Assembly: GCA_026004435.1 (NCBI GenBank)
Contig: BPJD01000002.1
Coordinates: 1 to 64,000 of the forward strand
DNA: 64,000 bases
Reading direction: 5' to 3'
DNA from: Patescibacteria group bacterium
GTDB taxonomy: Bacteria; Patescibacteriota; Microgenomatia; UBA1406; GWC2-37-13
Shown here piece by piece: positions 7,234 through 50,120 of the stretch. Each line of letters opens with the position of its first letter. Positions within the stretch are counted from its first letter, which is position 1. The position numbers and the translations under genes were made by a program. The notes beneath the pieces are model-generated. The model ran no database searches and was not told the DNA's origin. It saw only the letters and a program-made list of their open reading frames with translations.

Positions 7234-8568
7234 ATGTTTTCGTTTTGGACTGATCTAATAACGAGTCTAGAAAACCAAAAGGAGCAGCATCCTATACTTT
7301 TTCCTATTCTAAAACAGCTTAAACCAGTAAAAATTGAGAAAAACAAACTATTTTTACAGACAGACAATAAAGGCGTACTTTATTTTTTAGAAAAGAGAAA
7401 AGAAGAAATCGAGCTTTTGATTAAAAATTTTTCAGATAAAGATTACAAAATTGACTTTACATTAAAACAAAACAAAAAACAAGCCAAAACAAAGCAAAAA
7501 ACACCTCCATTGATAGAGTACTCACTCTCATTATCAGCAAAACTAGTAAAAGCTAATTTAAATCCACGATTTACCTTTGAGAACTTTGCTGTAGCACCGA
7601 CAAATCAGGTTGCTTATGCTGCTTGCCAGTCTATTATCGAGACACCCGGAAAAGTATATAACCCTTTATTTCTCTACGGCGGAGTTGGAGTAGGCAAGAC
7701 CCATCTGGCTCAGGCAACAGGGATTAAAATTATTCAACAGCACAAAGATAAAAAAGTCCTTTTCTCTCCAGGAGACCAGTTTACCAATGAATTAATTCAA
7801 TCAATTCAGAATAGATCTACCAACAACTTTAGAAATAAATACAGATCGCTGGATGTCTTAATAATAGATGATGTCCAGTTTATAGCTGGAAAAACAGCTG
7901 TTCAAGAAGAGTTTTTTAATACCTTTAACTCAATAGTATCTGCCGGAGGCCAAATAATTTTAATCTCAGACAAACCTCCTTCTGAGATCAAAAAACTTGA
8001 ACAAAGACTAAGATCTCGTTTTATGGGAGGACTTATTGTTGACATTCAAAACCCAGATTTTGAGCTTCGCACCGCAATAGTTTTAATAAAAGCTCGTGAA
8101 AAAAACATACCTATTGATATTGAAGCAGCCAAACTAATCGCAGAGAATATTCAAGACACAAGAGGACTTGAGGGAACCTTAATCTCTATTTATGCTCAAG
8201 TGCTAAACAAATACCAACAGGATACTATAACTTTTGAGATTGTCAGCAATTACTTAAATAAAAACTTGGTCGTAAAAAAAACAGACATCTTAGATGTTAT
8301 AAAAACAGTAACAGCCTTTTACGGCATATCTGCAACTAAAATCAAAAGCTCTAGCAGAATCTCAGAGATTTCTTTAGCCAGACAAGTAATAATGTATATT
8401 GCCAGAGAAAAATTAAATTATAAATACGAAGATATAGCTGTTTCCTTAAGACGAAAAGATCATACAACTATAATGCACGGCGTGGATAAAATAAAAAAAA
8501 TGATAATAAAAAACCCTAATTTTAAAAAAGAAATTGATCAGATTCTGTCTCTTTTAGATCTAATTTAA
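7234..8568 (+). CDS. dnaA: Chromosomal replication initiator DnaA
   Basis: DnaA binds DnaA boxes as an ATP-bound oligomer and opens the origin. From the ATG at 7234 it has 444 residues. Domain I is followed by the AAA+ module with Walker A (GGVGVGKTHLAQA), Walker B (VLIIDDVQF) and an arginine-finger region (LRSRFMGGL). The C-terminal duplex-binding domain carries the signature RRKDHTTIMHGVDKI. I chose 7234 because the longer frame starts with TTG at 7207, inside the DnaA boxes and within about 1 nt of the -10 element. dnaN follows after about 120 bp. Confidence 0.95.
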   Translation: MFSFWTDLITSLENQKEQHPILFPILKQLKPVKIEKNKLFLQTDNKGVLYFLEKRKEEIELLIKNFSDKDYKIDFTLKQNKKQAKTKQKTPPLIEYSLSLSAKLVKANLNPRFTFENFAVAPTNQVAYAACQSIIETPGKVYNPLFLYGGVGVGKTHLAQATGIKIIQQHKDKKVLFSPGDQFTNELIQSIQNRSTNNFRNKYRSLDVLIIDDVQFIAGKTAVQEEFFNTFNSIVSAGGQIILISDKPPSEIKKLEQRLRSRFMGGLIVDIQNPDFELRTAIVLIKAREKNIPIDIEAAKLIAENIQDTRGLEGTLISIYAQVLNKYQQDTITFEIVSNYLNKNLVVKKTDILDVIKTVTAFYGISATKIKSSSRISEISLARQVIMYIAREKLNYKYEDIAVSLRRKDHTTIMHGVDKIKKMIIKNPNFKKEIDQILSLLDLI

Positions 8569-44770: not shown

Positions 44771-45308
44771 GCCTTTTAGTTCCTAACTTTCGATGAGGGC
44801 ATTTTAAATAATTGCCTTTTAGTTCCTAACTTTCGATGACAAACTTTTAAGGAATATGCCTTTTAGTTCCTAACTTTCGATGAGTTGAATTTAAGATTAA
44901 AGCCTTTTAGTTCCTAACTTTCGATGAAGCAAACTTAATCTTTGCGCCTTTTAGTTCCTAACTTTCGATGCAACTCGGCAATTTAACTGCCTTTTAGTTC
45001 CTAACTTTCGATGAAGTCATAGAACTATCTGCCTTTTAGTTCCTAACTTTCGATGCAATTGATTCTAAATTAAGCCTTTTAGTTCCTAACTTTCGATGAA
45101 AAATCTCCAAGTATGCCTTTTAGTTCCTAACTTTCGATGATGTGAAATTACGGTTGTAGCCTTTTAGTTCCTAACTTTCGATGCGTTACATTGTAAATTG
45201 CCTTTTAGTTCCTAACTTTCGATGTGGTTTTATATTGTTAGCCTTTTAGTTCCTAACTTTCGATGAATAATCGTACATTTGTTGCCTTTTAGTTCCTAAC
45301 TTTCGATG
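44771..45308 (-). CRISPR. Type V-D CRISPR array, 13 repeats and 12 spacers
   Basis: There are thirteen identical 25-nt repeats, starting at 44771, 44814, 44858, 44902, 44946, 44989, 45031, 45074, 45115, 45159, 45200, 45241 and 45284. The twelve spacers are, from left to right, 18, 19, 19, 19, 18, 17, 18, 16, 19, 16, 16 and 18 nt. On the minus strand the repeat begins CATCGAAAG, contains the small hairpin AGTT-AGG-AACT and ends AAAAGGC. A repeat of about 25 nt ending in AAGGC and spacers of 17-19 nt are, as I recall, hallmarks of Cas12d (CasY) arrays. The promoter at 45309-45337 fits minus-strand transcription, so the leader-proximal (newest) spacer is the one at 45266-45283. All repeats are intact, with no degenerate end. 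Confidence 0.97.
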
Positions 45309-45337
45309 AGTATATCAAATTTTTAGCATATTTTCAA
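45309..45337 (-). promoter_or_regulatory. CRISPR array promoter abutting the first repeat
   Basis: On the minus strand, TTGAAA (45337-45332), a 17-nt spacer and TATACT (45314-45309) end exactly where the first repeat begins (45308). Transcription would start about seven bases into the first repeat. Confidence 0.75.
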
Positions 45338-45399: not shown

Positions 45400-46461
45400 T
45401 TGATCTTTAGCATTTGTTTTTTTAATTTGGTAAAAATAGCTAAATTTTATATCTGGCTTCCTTATTTGAGTAATATTAAGGTTTATCCTAAGTCTGTTTA
45501 TTTTGAGTATAAGGGAGGTGAGCTTAATATTGATTGGGTTAGGATTCATTCTGTTATGATCTATGGTCATTCTGTTGATTTGCCTTGTGATTTTTTGTAT
45601 AAGTGTTGTTTTTATAAAATTCCTGTTGTTGTCCATAGGAGAAATGTTTCTAGGGCTGTTTTTATTTGTTCTAACTTATCTGGAGATTCTGAAAATATTT
45701 TAAGCAGGCAAATTTTATTCCGTAATAATGAGAAGAAAAAAGCATATATAGCAAAAAAGCTGCTTTTGGCAAAGTTCAAAAGTATGTCTTGGTTAGTCCC
45801 TTATAGAAGTGATTATTTGTATAAAGTTTTTAATATTGATGAGATGATGGCTTTTGAGGCTTATCATGCCAGAAAGTATTGGAGAGAATTTTTTAGGCTA
45901 TTAGGAGTTAATGTTAATCGCAGGATAAATGACTCTGTTTATAAAAAAACATTAGATGCTGTCTCAAAATTTTTGTCTGGTATTATGTTACGATGGATTG
46001 TTTTTCATAATCTTAGTCCTTACCATGGTTTTTTACATAAACCTGTTGATTATCCGGCTCTAGTTTATGATTTGATAGAACCTTATAGGGGTTTCTTTGA
46101 TAAGGTCGTTTTCAATGTATTTGTTAAGTTTAAACAGTCAGGAGTTAATCTTGATAAAGCTTTGTCAGCGTCAATTGATGAGATTAAAGAGTTTTTGTCT
46201 TATAAAGTTTATGTTTCTGCAACAAGACAGGTGGTTGGATTTAAAGAACTTTTGCATGGTATTGTTTTGTCATTGAGAACTTATTTGTTGAGCAATACGA
46301 AAAGATTTATTGTTCCTATGCCATCTAAACCAAAGGGTGGTCGGCCAATTAATGCAGGTTATAAATTATATGGTGGTAATGCAGGTATTACTAATTTCTG
46401 GCCGAACACAAAACAGTTTGTTAAGTCTTTTGAGGAAGTTTATTTTAATTTAGATTTCTAA
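45400..46461 (+). CDS. cas1: CRISPR integrase Cas1 (stand-alone)
   Basis: Cas1 inserts new spacers at the leader-repeat junction. The 353-residue protein has the N-terminal beta domain (about 15-90) and the alpha-helical catalytic domain. Metal-site candidates are Glu153 (EAYHARKYW), His209 (SPYHGFLH) and Asp224/Glu227 (YDLIEPYR). No cas2 or cas4 exists nearby, as in type V-C/V-D systems. In those, Cas1 alone acts as a mini-integrase for 17-19-bp fragments, which fits the short spacers here. No ATG start is available: the frame opens with TTG at 45400 (or TTG at 45427). Its last 12 nt overlap the end of convergent cas12d. Confidence 0.95.
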   Translation: MIFSICFFNLVKIAKFYIWLPYLSNIKVYPKSVYFEYKGGELNIDWVRIHSVMIYGHSVDLPCDFLYKCCFYKIPVVVHRRNVSRAVFICSNLSGDSENILSRQILFRNNEKKKAYIAKKLLLAKFKSMSWLVPYRSDYLYKVFNIDEMMAFEAYHARKYWREFFRLLGVNVNRRINDSVYKKTLDAVSKFLSGIMLRWIVFHNLSPYHGFLHKPVDYPALVYDLIEPYRGFFDKVVFNVFVKFKQSGVNLDKALSASIDEIKEFLSYKVYVSATRQVVGFKELLHGIVLSLRTYLLSNTKRFIVPMPSKPKGGRPINAGYKLYGGNAGITNFWPNTKQFVKSFEEVYFNLDF

Positions 46462-49400
46462 CATATTTAAGTTCTTCTTTTGGAATTTTTCTAACATCTC
46501 TATTGTTTCTGTAAAGTATTTTACTTTTATGCTGTTATTTTTTTCTTTCTTGCTTATGTTAATATACCCTCTTAATGCCATTATAAATGCTGCTTGCTTA
46601 TCTGCGTCTGATATTCTGTTGCATTTTGAATTAGGACAAACAAATACTGCGCTGTTTCCTCTTGTTTTTCTTATTTGCTCCAATTTTGTTATGTCAGTTC
46701 CTTTTTCTCTTAATAAATTTAGAACAGCTGAGTTTTGGCTTATCGGAGGTCGAGCAAAGTCTTTTATAATTTTTTGTATTTCTTTTAGAGAATCTTCTGA
46801 TGTTTTTATTTTAGGAACTGTTTTACTGTAAGCATAAAGTTTTATATTTTTTGACTTAAATTCTATTTCAAGTATGTGTTTGTTGGTTTGATGCCTGGTA
46901 ATGTTGACTTCTTTTAAATCAGATATAGAGATCTCATAAAGACTTCTGTTGCAGTAACTGCAAGTGTAGCTGGATGCATATGAGCTTAGGTGTCTGCCTG
47001 GGTATGGAGCTCTTTTGCCCCAAATATGATCATGGTAAATGTTTGTTTTTGTTTTTTCATCATATACATCTGATTTTTTTACTGTTGCGTATATTTTTGT
47101 AGTTCTTCCGCTTCCTGTTTCAAAATTTGAGATTGAGTATTCATATATGATATAGCTGGGCTTGTATTTTATCAGTAGATTGTGAATTTTATTTCTTAAT
47201 GAACCAATAGCTGTTTCTCTGACTTTTGCTACTGTGTTTGTTTTAACATTGAAGTAGCCTTTCCTTGCTTTTTTTTGTATCTCTGAAAATTGATCTTTAA
47301 TTTTTGCTATATTTGGTTCGTGAATAAAACCTGATGTCAAGATATTTATTGTGTTTTCTTCGACTTTTATTATGCAGTAAGCTAAGCCATACTCTCCAAC
47401 ATCTATACCAATTATTGGCCTTGATAACGAATTTTTGTCTTCTTGTAGTTCTTTTAGAGACTGTGTTGTTTTGTCGCTTTCTAAGTTAAAAGGAATATTT
47501 AGGTAAAGTTTTGTTTTTTTGCTGTTTGTTTCTTTAAATTGAGGCAGTCCTGTGTGCAAGTCCCAGTTTATTTTATATTCTTTTTCTAATATAAAGCTCC
47601 ATTCTCCTAATTTTATTTTGCTGGTTTTCCATTTTCTGCTTTTGTATAGAAAGTTGTCTAAAAACTGTGTTTGGTAGTATGAAGAGTTGATTACAAATGA
47701 GTTGTTTAGCTCAGATAAGTCTATTTCCTTAAGTTGGTAACTGTCTTTTTTGAGAGTAATTACATTGATTTTTGTGCTTTTGCTGTTGTTTTTGTCTAAA
47801 CTAATTACATATCTGTGCTGATTTGATATGATCTGGGGTAATAGTTGCTTGTTTAGTTTTTCTTTAATTAGGTTTGAGGTTAGGTATATTGGATAGTCTT
47901 TGTCTGTGGCAATAGACTGGATTGTGTACTTAGCTAAATACTTTTCTTGAGTGTAAATAGTCGCAGAGCCCCTTATCGCTGAAAGTATGAATGCCTGATT
48001 AGTATAGTTGTAATCTGACATTTTAATTTTATTATCATTGAGTAATTCAATGTATTTCTTTGCATCTGTAAAGAGTTTAGGTATTTGAATGTTATCTTTT
48101 GGGATCGAGTTTAATTTGGTTAGTTTTGCAAGTTTTGCTATTATGTGTCTTGATAAATCAATAAAATCTAAAAGCCGGTTTTTGTTTGTTAGTAGTTGTG
48201 CTTCTTGTGTGTTTAGTTGGTTTATTAATTTTTCTAATATTTCTGAATAATTTTCTAGGTTTTGTTTGGTTATGCTAAAGACAGTTTGAGTGCCTTTTTT
48301 ATACGGATTTTGTATAAATGAGTATTTTTCTGTTTTGTTTTCTTTGATGATTTTTATAATTTCAGGGTTAATTCCTTTTAAAATCTCTTCGTAAAGTTCG
48401 TTAAACTCTTTGGAGTTTATTGATTTTGTCTTAATTTTGTTTAATATGAATTCTAATGTGTTTCTGAGTTCTTGTTCGTCTGCTAATTTGTTTTTATCCA
48501 AGTGGTTTTTTAGAAAGTTAATTTGTCGTTGGATATATGCAATACCTTGTTTAAGTATTGGAATAGTTTCTTTAAATATTCTTTCATTTCTTTTGTAGAT
48601 TGATTGACCATAAAATGTCATTGGTTTGTATATTCTATTAAAATAATTTTCTATTTTTTCTTTGGCTTTGTCATTGTCTTTTAGGTTTTTTTGAAAATAA
48701 AAATTGATTTGCTTTTTAAAATCTCCGATTAAAGAATTAATTATTTGACTATTTTCTGGTTCTAAAAACATGTCGGAGTTCTTATTAATTATATTTTGGA
48801 TTTGTTGGACTTTTTCTATTAATTCTTTTGCTTCTTGATCGTTGTTGGTTTCCAGCTCCTTTATTAAACTTTTTAAGTTTTCCTTAAAAATTTCAATCTG
48901 ATTTCTTATTTGTCCCTTTCGTTCTGACATATTTGAAAACCAGCTCTGTACTTTCCCAAAGTTCATTCGGTATTTACTCCAGTTTTTAATCTTTGGCATA
49001 CTTGTTTTTCCAAGTTTTTTTGCTTTTTCTGCAAGATAAGCAAGTGCTTTTTTTACTTTGTCTTTTTCTTGATCGCTATAGTTGTAGATTTTATCTAGTG
49101 CTTTTAATATGTCTTCTAATTTGTTTTGCTGTAGAAATGTTAAGATTTTTCCAAAATAGTTTGATAAACCGTTAAAGTTTTTGTCTGTGAGTAATATGTT
49201 GTTAAGTTCTTCTTTAATTTTTGTTTTTTTTAGTTTTTGCTGCAACCATAGTTTTCTTTTATTAATTAGTTCCTCTACTGTTATGTCGTTGTTGAGGTCT
49301 TCGATTAAATCTGGAACTATTACGAATGTCAATTTCTCTAAAGGCTTTCTGGGCATATAGTCATAAAGTTTTTGTTTGTCTAAATTAAAATACTCTTTCC

Positions 49401-49992
49401 AAAAGTTTATTTGTTGATTTTGGTTTAGTTTTAGTTGGCCTTTTTCATCAAAGATGGCCTCTAGGATAAAGTTAATTGTGTTTTCTGCTAATTTTTTGTC
49501 AGCTTGCTCTTGTATCATCTCCTCTAATTTTTTCTTATAAGATGCTTTTGTTGTTTTGCTTCTTATTTCTTCTGTTAGGATAAGATTGTTTTTGATTTGT
49601 TTGGGTTCGAAAATTTTAAGTTCATCTTTAGCATTTTCAAGGATTTTGTCAATTATGCTTTTTTCCTGCTTTATTTTTGATTGGACAAAGTATATTAGGT
49701 TAAATAATGATGACTGCCAAATAACGCCTGCTTTTAATGAATCTATCCAGAAATTTATTATTGTGTAAAAATCTTTTTTATTAACATAGTAGTCATAATA
49801 GTCGTTTAGGTTAACACATCCTCTTATCTTATGGTCATCATTTATTATTTTTTCTGAGATTGTTGTTAGATCTTTATTTGTGTTGTCATATGGCGTAATA
49901 GGGTATTTAATGCTTCTTATTATAGCTCTATGAGATATCTGGAGTCTTTTGTTATGCAGTTTGTATCCTAATGTGTTAAATTTGTCGTGCAT
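46450..49992 (-). CDS. cas12d: CRISPR effector nuclease Cas12d (CasY)
   Basis: This is an RNA-guided DNA endonuclease with a single RuvC site. From the ATG at 49992 it has 1180 residues; a TTG at 50034 would give 1194. It aligns by eye with CasY proteins I remember, in the N-terminal GYKLHNKRLQ...RSIKYPI, in SSYYQTQFLDNFL before the nuclease and throughout the RuvC part. In 1194 numbering the catalytic residues are Asp878 (GIDVGEYG), Glu965 (IIYEYSISN) and Asp1145 (ISDADKQAAF). A zinc-finger-like insert has Cys1025/1028 (CSYC) and Cys1133/1138 (CPNSKC). All are intact, so it should be active. The ATG is preferred because the region upstream holds the structured RNA and its second anti-repeat, which the TTG start would overlap. 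The gene is convergent with cas1. Confidence 0.95.
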   Translation of the reverse strand: MHDKFNTLGYKLHNKRLQISHRAIIRSIKYPITPYDNTNKDLTTISEKIINDDHKIRGCVNLNDYYDYYVNKKDFYTIINFWIDSLKAGVIWQSSLFNLIYFVQSKIKQEKSIIDKILENAKDELKIFEPKQIKNNLILTEEIRSKTTKASYKKKLEEMIQEQADKKLAENTINFILEAIFDEKGQLKLNQNQQINFWKEYFNLDKQKLYDYMPRKPLEKLTFVIVPDLIEDLNNDITVEELINKRKLWLQQKLKKTKIKEELNNILLTDKNFNGLSNYFGKILTFLQQNKLEDILKALDKIYNYSDQEKDKVKKALAYLAEKAKKLGKTSMPKIKNWSKYRMNFGKVQSWFSNMSERKGQIRNQIEIFKENLKSLIKELETNNDQEAKELIEKVQQIQNIINKNSDMFLEPENSQIINSLIGDFKKQINFYFQKNLKDNDKAKEKIENYFNRIYKPMTFYGQSIYKRNERIFKETIPILKQGIAYIQRQINFLKNHLDKNKLADEQELRNTLEFILNKIKTKSINSKEFNELYEEILKGINPEIIKIIKENKTEKYSFIQNPYKKGTQTVFSITKQNLENYSEILEKLINQLNTQEAQLLTNKNRLLDFIDLSRHIIAKLAKLTKLNSIPKDNIQIPKLFTDAKKYIELLNDNKIKMSDYNYTNQAFILSAIRGSATIYTQEKYLAKYTIQSIATDKDYPIYLTSNLIKEKLNKQLLPQIISNQHRYVISLDKNNSKSTKINVITLKKDSYQLKEIDLSELNNSFVINSSYYQTQFLDNFLYKSRKWKTSKIKLGEWSFILEKEYKINWDLHTGLPQFKETNSKKTKLYLNIPFNLESDKTTQSLKELQEDKNSLSRPIIGIDVGEYGLAYCIIKVEENTINILTSGFIHEPNIAKIKDQFSEIQKKARKGYFNVKTNTVAKVRETAIGSLRNKIHNLLIKYKPSYIIYEYSISNFETGSGRTTKIYATVKKSDVYDEKTKTNIYHDHIWGKRAPYPGRHLSSYASSYTCSYCNRSLYEISISDLKEVNITRHQTNKHILEIEFKSKNIKLYAYSKTVPKIKTSEDSLKEIQKIIKDFARPPISQNSAVLNLLREKGTDITKLEQIRKTRGNSAVFVCPNSKCNRISDADKQAAFIMALRGYINISKKEKNNSIKVKYFTETIEMLEKFQKKNLNMLEI

Positions 49993-50012: not shown

Positions 50013-50087
50013 GAGCTCTTGCAGTAAAAGGCAACGATCTGCAAATGCGGATCGGGAAACCGCAAGAGCTCTGAGTTAGGAACTCAT
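50013..50087 (-). ncRNA. Candidate scoutRNA/tracr-like RNA with two anti-repeats
   Basis: This structured element sits between the cas12d promoter and cas12d. Read on the minus strand it opens with the hairpin TGAGTT-CCT-AACTCA (50086-50072), whose AGTTCCTAACT (50084-50074) is an 11-nt exact complement of the crRNA repeat, positions 8-18. A perfect 10-bp stem follows (50071-50062 with 50022-50013). It encloses a CGATC/GATCG hairpin and a loop with GCCTTTTA (50032-50025), an 8-nt exact complement of the repeat's 3' end (positions 18-25). Cas12d is known to need a short-complementarity RNA (scoutRNA). No terminator separates this element from cas12d, so it may be cut out of the cas12d leader. 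Confidence 0.75.
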
Positions 50088-50091
50088 CTTT

Positions 50092-50120
50092 ATTATATAT
50101 TTATTGTGATTTTTTGTCAA
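50092..50120 (-). promoter_or_regulatory. Consensus promoter of the scoutRNA-cas12d unit
   Basis: On the minus strand, TTGACA (50120-50115), exactly 17 nt, and TATAAT (50097-50092) form a perfect sigma-70 consensus. The start site falls at about 50087-50084, the first bases of the structured RNA. Confidence 0.85.

Follow-up and report, generated by a model that had tools for sequence, protein, structure and literature searches.

Trans-activating CRISPR RNAs (tracrRNAs) are commonly needed for the maturation of CRISPR (clustered regularly interspaced short palindromic repeats) RNAs (crRNAs), a step performed by RNase III in many systems. For the effector Cas12d (CasY), Harrington et al. in 2020 reportedly described a helper RNA, the scoutRNA (short-complementarity untranslated RNA), with only short complementarity to the crRNA repeat. 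In the cryo-electron microscopy structure of Cas12c2 (Kurihara et al. 2022, PMC9522604; PDB 7V93/7V94), repeat:anti-repeat duplex 1 (R:AR-1) spans repeat positions -11 to -8, counted back from the repeat's end, and lies just 5′ of stem 1; R:AR-2 spans -4 to -1 and lies in the dock; and in R:AR-3 positions -18 to -12 pair with a segment at the 3′ side of the RNA. The authors of that structure argue that such RNAs are tracrRNAs (PMC9522604). The tracrRNAs of Cas12b, Cas12f1, Cas12g and Cas12l form long and short repeat:anti-repeat duplexes (PMC11246509). Here we analyzed the leader of cas12d in a 64,000-nucleotide stretch of DNA (the window; contig BPJD01000002.1) from a tiny bacterium of the Candidate Phyla Radiation. 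Judging from sequence, we put at roughly 85% the probability that the leader RNA serves this Cas12d as its guide-RNA partner, namely as a scoutRNA working as a tracrRNA and encoded as the 5′ untranslated region (UTR) of cas12d.

Two anti-repeats in the cas12d leader

The minus strand from 50120 to 50013 reads, in order, promoter, GAGTTCCTAACTC, and a stem 1 that encloses a linker, a small hairpin and GCCTTTTA, and the likely cas12d ATG comes 20 nt after stem 1. The preliminary description of this DNA, made from its letters alone, had proposed a consensus promoter here, and all 12 of 12 promoter bases indeed fit the sigma-70 type (50092-50120, minus strand; TTGACA at 50120-50115, a 17-nt spacer and TATAAT at 50097-50092). 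It had also claimed two separate exact complements of the crRNA repeat CATCGAAAGTTAGGAACTAAAAGGC, and both are present on the minus strand. Anti-repeat 1 (AR1), AGTTCCTAACT at 50084-50074, complements 11 nt of the repeat (positions 8-18, or -18 to -8), and the dock (AR2), GCCTTTTA at 50032-50025, complements 8 nt (positions 18-25, or -8 to -1); repeat base 18 (-8) falls in both matches and can pair only once. The dock sits in the loop of stem 1, whose strands GAGCTCTTGC (50062-50071, minus strand) and GCAAGAGCTC (50013-50022, minus strand) form a perfect 10-bp helix, so that here, too, sequence and fold agree with the earlier claim. The predicted fold lengthens this helix to 13 bp, the 5′ strand reaching 50059, and a GGTTTCC linker is followed by stem 2, a CGATC...GATCG hairpin (50035-50054, minus strand). 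The whole RNA folds with a minimum free energy of -33.4 kcal/mol (z = -6.7). Rfam contained no match to it.

In the 64-kb window AGTTCCTAACT occurs 13 times in the CRISPR array, where the copies fall on the plus strand, the crRNA being read from the minus strand, and one further time in the leader, against a chance expectation of 0.08. None of 600 Markov simulations of a 150-nt leader reached an 11-nt match, and AR1 and the dock are the two longest repeat matches in the leader, shorter third matches lying outside this comparison. When the leader RNA was cofolded with its own repeat, a check that had been suggested at the outset, it bound at -12.8 kcal/mol, and removal of AR1 brought this to 0.0 in a program whose scope does not include the dock pseudoknot; the 8 nt of the dock alone gave -8.2 kcal/mol with the repeat.

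Conservation and covariation of AR1 among Cas12d loci

Relatives were collected by NF033951 scans of Patescibacteria genomes and one contig-database scan, which gave 15 further readable Cas12d loci (16 with the window). The contig-database scan yielded 11 loci with an alignment as query and none with a single protein, and a search of IMG/VR returned no Cas12d loci. We compared the leaders, located the repeats and sought missing repeats by sequence pattern. The scout core, consisting of stem 1, linker, stem 2 and a GCCTT dock, was present in all 15 other loci; the conserved part of the dock is GCCTT only, not the whole 8-nt match of the window. Stem 1 covaried strongly among relatives when its strands were paired by hand, which inflates the percentage paired.

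An AR1 lies 5′ of stem 1 in 12 of the 16 loci, each an exact complement of 9-12 nt of its own repeat (11, 11, 11, 11, 10, 10, 9, 10, 9, 12, 12 and 10 nt) and each in the same register, beginning at repeat position -8 or -9. In group A (the window, L035, L031 and L033) the repeat core AGTTAGGAACT goes with AR1 AGTTCCTAACT; in group B (L032, L038 and L034) GGTTAGGGAC or AGTTAGGGAC goes with GTCCCTAACC; and in group C GTTAGGAACC in L036, or a solo copy with TTAGGAACC in L016, goes with GGTTCCTAAC. The Dojkabacteria group (L005, L039 and L012) pairs TTTAGGTGGTG or ATTAGGTGGTG with CACCACCTAA. For this last group only the leaders were known beforehand, and because they read CACCACCTAA we searched with a pattern fixing TTAGG...AAAGGC alone; arrays with TTAGGTGGTG and TTAGGTGGTGAAAAGGC were recovered in all three genomes. 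AR1 predicts the repeat and the repeat predicts AR1, which therefore offers a practical route to the discovery of scoutRNAs. As a separate observation, locus L045 (G843:C43:27096-27111, minus strand) holds a lone repeat-like CATTGAAATTTAGGAACCAAAAGGC with no array, and the cas12d leader of the same genome has a matching anti-repeat.

Covariation was scored on the nine distinct AR1/repeat combinations. Nine of the 12 pairs of the AR1:repeat helix were altered on both sides and none on one side only, although these double changes are not independent events because the sequences are related. Paired cells made up 87%, compared to 64% in shuffles and 25-47% when the register was slid, and random re-pairing of AR1s with repeats equalled the observed pairing in 16 of 100,000 trials. 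Thus comparison across Cas12d loci, which the preliminary description had named as a way to check its proposal, supports it: AR1 is conserved throughout the window's clade and covaries with the repeat.

The 12 AR1 loci form one side of a branch in the Cas12d tree (support 100/98), a tree that includes two long outgroup branches and a fragment, L016. The loci outside this clade, L002, L037, L015 and L003, have a scout core yet no clear AR1. In L002, L037 and L015, the three of these loci with a known repeat, the core (AAAGGGTTTCC...GCCTT) stands at the array end or just past it, and their repeats self-fold into a 6-bp hairpin at -6.0 to -8.1 kcal/mol, whereas repeats of the AR1 clade mostly self-fold at only 0 to -3.3 kcal/mol. 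This pattern suggests that the trans duplex replaced a hairpin formed in cis by the repeat, or the reverse, depending on where the root of the tree lies. A 9-nt match in L037, CATCACCAA (-14 to -6), was not counted as an AR1; it lies one spacer length past the last repeat and can also be read as a decayed sense repeat. In L002 (115-200) and L037 (about 8045-8180, both in cas12d orientation) the scout core begins at the last or a decayed repeat of the array, the 3′ end of which (AAAGGG) doubles as the 5′ strand of stem 1. Since these cores begin at such repeats, they suggest that scoutRNAs arose from the array end.

The leader RNA as a candidate tracrRNA and its alternatives

Most of the 12 loci have a -10-like box 5-7 nt upstream of the G that leads into AR1 (in L035 TATAAA at 7 nt, by eye; the box of L036 is not clear). 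AR1 therefore most probably forms the 5′ terminus of the RNA, with a predicted +1 at the G at 50085, immediately before it in the window. The start codon follows AR1 by 93-137 nt throughout the clade, and thus the guide RNA would be the 5′ UTR of cas12d. This arrangement leaves room for termination, as at a terminator-like T-run after stem 1 in L016, or for processing. In L012, about 5 to 30 nt upstream of AR1, 10 nt of the repeat core in sense orientation, AAATTAGGTG, overlap the promoter; they and the anti-repeat form an inverted repeat with the -10 box between its arms, an arrangement that may be chance or regulatory.

From these elements, their conservation, register and covariation, we infer a transcribed RNA that pairs with the crRNA in the Cas12d complex and takes part in crRNA maturation and target cleavage. 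The RNA would begin at the invariant G before AR1; stem 1, stem 2 and the linker would form the scaffold held by Cas12d; and GCCTT(TTA) of the dock, in the stem-1 loop, would pair with the final 5-8 nt of the crRNA repeat. AR1 and repeat positions -18 to -8 would form a continuous 11-bp duplex in place of the self-hairpin of other Cas12d repeats. Such a duplex would serve to pick out the crRNA and set its position, and it may be a substrate of RNase III or of Cas12d's own processing; the former is possible because the host genome encodes RNase III.

By sequence, the order of parts is that of Cas12c2, a precedent that the preliminary description had not named: AR1 lies 5′ of stem 1 and ends at -8, the dock lies in the stem-1 loop, and stem 2 and linkers lie between. 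In contrast to the 4-bp R:AR-1 of Cas12c2, however, the AR1 duplex of this Cas12d clade would be continuous over 9-12 bp and in the window would span -18 to -8 alone, probably with no need of a 3′ segment. Because the part order is equal, one duplex of the window RNA would cover, by analogy, the regions of both R:AR-1 and R:AR-3. The locus shares with the type V-D scoutRNA a Cas12d effector, a GCCTT dock, a stem-loop scaffold and a repeat ending in AAGGC; the predicted RNA is structured and untranslated, and its short dock complements the last bases of the repeat. Unlike the described scoutRNA, the AR1 clade adds its own promoter and, beyond a complementarity of only 3-5 nt, a 9-12-nt covarying anti-repeat; an extensive anti-repeat that matches the crRNA repeat and is maintained by covariation is one mark of a tracrRNA. 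The idea that this scoutRNA candidate has an anti-repeat in two parts and stands between scoutRNA and tracrRNA has thus gained support from the scout core in relatives and from the covarying AR1, and it suggests that the "short-complementarity" helper RNAs of this clade are fuller tracrRNAs. Like the tracrRNAs of Cas12b, Cas12f1, Cas12g and Cas12l, the RNA would form a long repeat:anti-repeat duplex and a short one, a likeness that does not imply a homologous layout; here the long duplex would occupy the very start of the RNA, and a dock within a loop would supply the short one.

Several observations weigh against a tracrRNA-like role. Independent covariation events are few, and the switch to the Dojkabacteria sequences carries most double changes, groups A, B and C contributing single compensated positions. 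The AR1s of these three groups are also reasonably good partners for the repeats of the other groups among the three (8-11 of 12, G-U pairs counted). At the helix ends, L034, L016 and L036 lack one or two of the pairs, L016 has its repeat as a solo copy instead of an array, and the Dojkabacteria repeat of L005 self-folds at -5.2 kcal/mol. Furthermore, the AR1s of groups A, B and C mostly self-fold at -1.7 to -3.3 kcal/mol, a weaker fold that competes with the duplex. They form hairpins because their repeat cores are partly palindromic, and AR1 might accordingly be mainly a 5′-terminal hairpin (GAGTT-CCT-AACTC) serving to protect the RNA or to be recognized by Cas12d, the repeat match being a by-product of the shared palindrome. 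L034 and L036 would fit this, as they keep the hairpin pair at an end position and lose the repeat pair. However, the loop of AR1 is always the antisense CCT and never the repeat's own AGG; the T to C change of group B fits the A to G of its repeat yet breaks the AR1 hairpin; and the AR1s of Dojkabacteria lack the hairpin and still form 10-12 bp with their repeats. On these grounds we rejected AR1 as a hairpin only, and consider even a mainly hairpin role very improbable.

A quite unlikely, though more credible, alternative is that AR1 acts as antisense within the leader of the cas12d messenger RNA (mRNA), and that through it free pre-crRNA or crRNA would tune translation, mRNA stability or scoutRNA release outside the nuclease complex. 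The gene directly follows the RNA at the short distance given above in the AR1 clade, and from the T-run after stem 1 in L016 it appears that a single promoter serves both scoutRNA and mRNA. Such regulation would not call for the loss of the repeat self-hairpin, however, which is lost exactly where AR1 occurs, and the AR1 register matches a pairing in the Cas12c2 guide complex. The two roles are not exclusive, and an antisense function could hold beside a tracrRNA-like one. That AR1 is a functionless chance match, or an inverted repeat decayed after rearrangement of the array, is barely conceivable: a lone 11-nt match in one leader would be just moderately striking, and the scouts of outgroup loci do adjoin array ends, but only 0.08 matches are expected in the window, and place, register and length are alike in 12 loci with nine different repeat/AR1 combinations.

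A tentative and rather doubtful extension of the tracrRNA-like reading is that this clade swapped the repeat hairpin for an anti-repeat in trans, with the tracrRNA as the effector's own 5′ UTR, and that the same pairing lets free crRNA and Cas12d detect and process the cas12d transcript; nuclease synthesis and the supply of guides would then be coupled by a built-in feedback. More generally, a second, long, covarying anti-repeat would alter guide design for this Cas12d clade, bear on the conflict over the names scoutRNA and tracrRNA raised by the Cas12c2 structure, and give an evolutionary series from a repeat hairpin with an array-end scout to a trans anti-repeat with its own promoter. The tracrRNA or scoutRNA of types V-C and V-D is known as a kind. 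In the literature searched, which left out most subscription papers, we met no account of any anti-repeat in a Cas12d RNA, and hence none of a long, covarying one at the 5′ end in a whole Cas12d clade, so that an earlier description is possible.

The effector, its array and divergent loci

The cas12d gene lies at 46450-49992 on the minus strand, in an open frame that extends up to 50034; ATG 49992 is a likelier start than TTG 50034. Its product scores 918 bits against NF033951 (cut-off 250) and has intact RuvC motifs (GIDVGEYG, YEYSI and DADKQA). A profile match to 7VYX and 7V93 agrees with the kinship of Cas12c and Cas12d, and a search of a PDB copy yielded no structure of Cas12d itself. The CRISPR array (44771-45308, crRNA sense on the minus strand) has 13 copies of CATCGAAAGTTAGGAACTAAAAGGC and spacers of 16-19 nt; its period of 41-44 nt, repeat of about 25 nt and accompanying cas1 fit type V-D. 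This cas1 (45400-46461, plus strand) stands alone by the array, no cas2 having been identified among the listed open reading frames around it. Directly upstream of the array is a promoter-like TTGAAA-17-TATACT (45309-45337, minus strand), a weak candidate given two such sites in the region and 1.6 expected.

In L038 (7338-10900, G789) stop codons split cas12d in two, while scout, AR1 and 30 repeats are retained, which resembles the reported fragmented fCasY (PMC6509639). A divergent Cas12d-like open frame in L051 (G1198:C6) scores 366 bits with neighbours and is accompanied by a repeat that contains GTTTTAGAAACATCCTTTAAAAGAGAGGAGTAGAAAC at 70-71-nt spacing, unlike the other Cas12d repeats in this sample.
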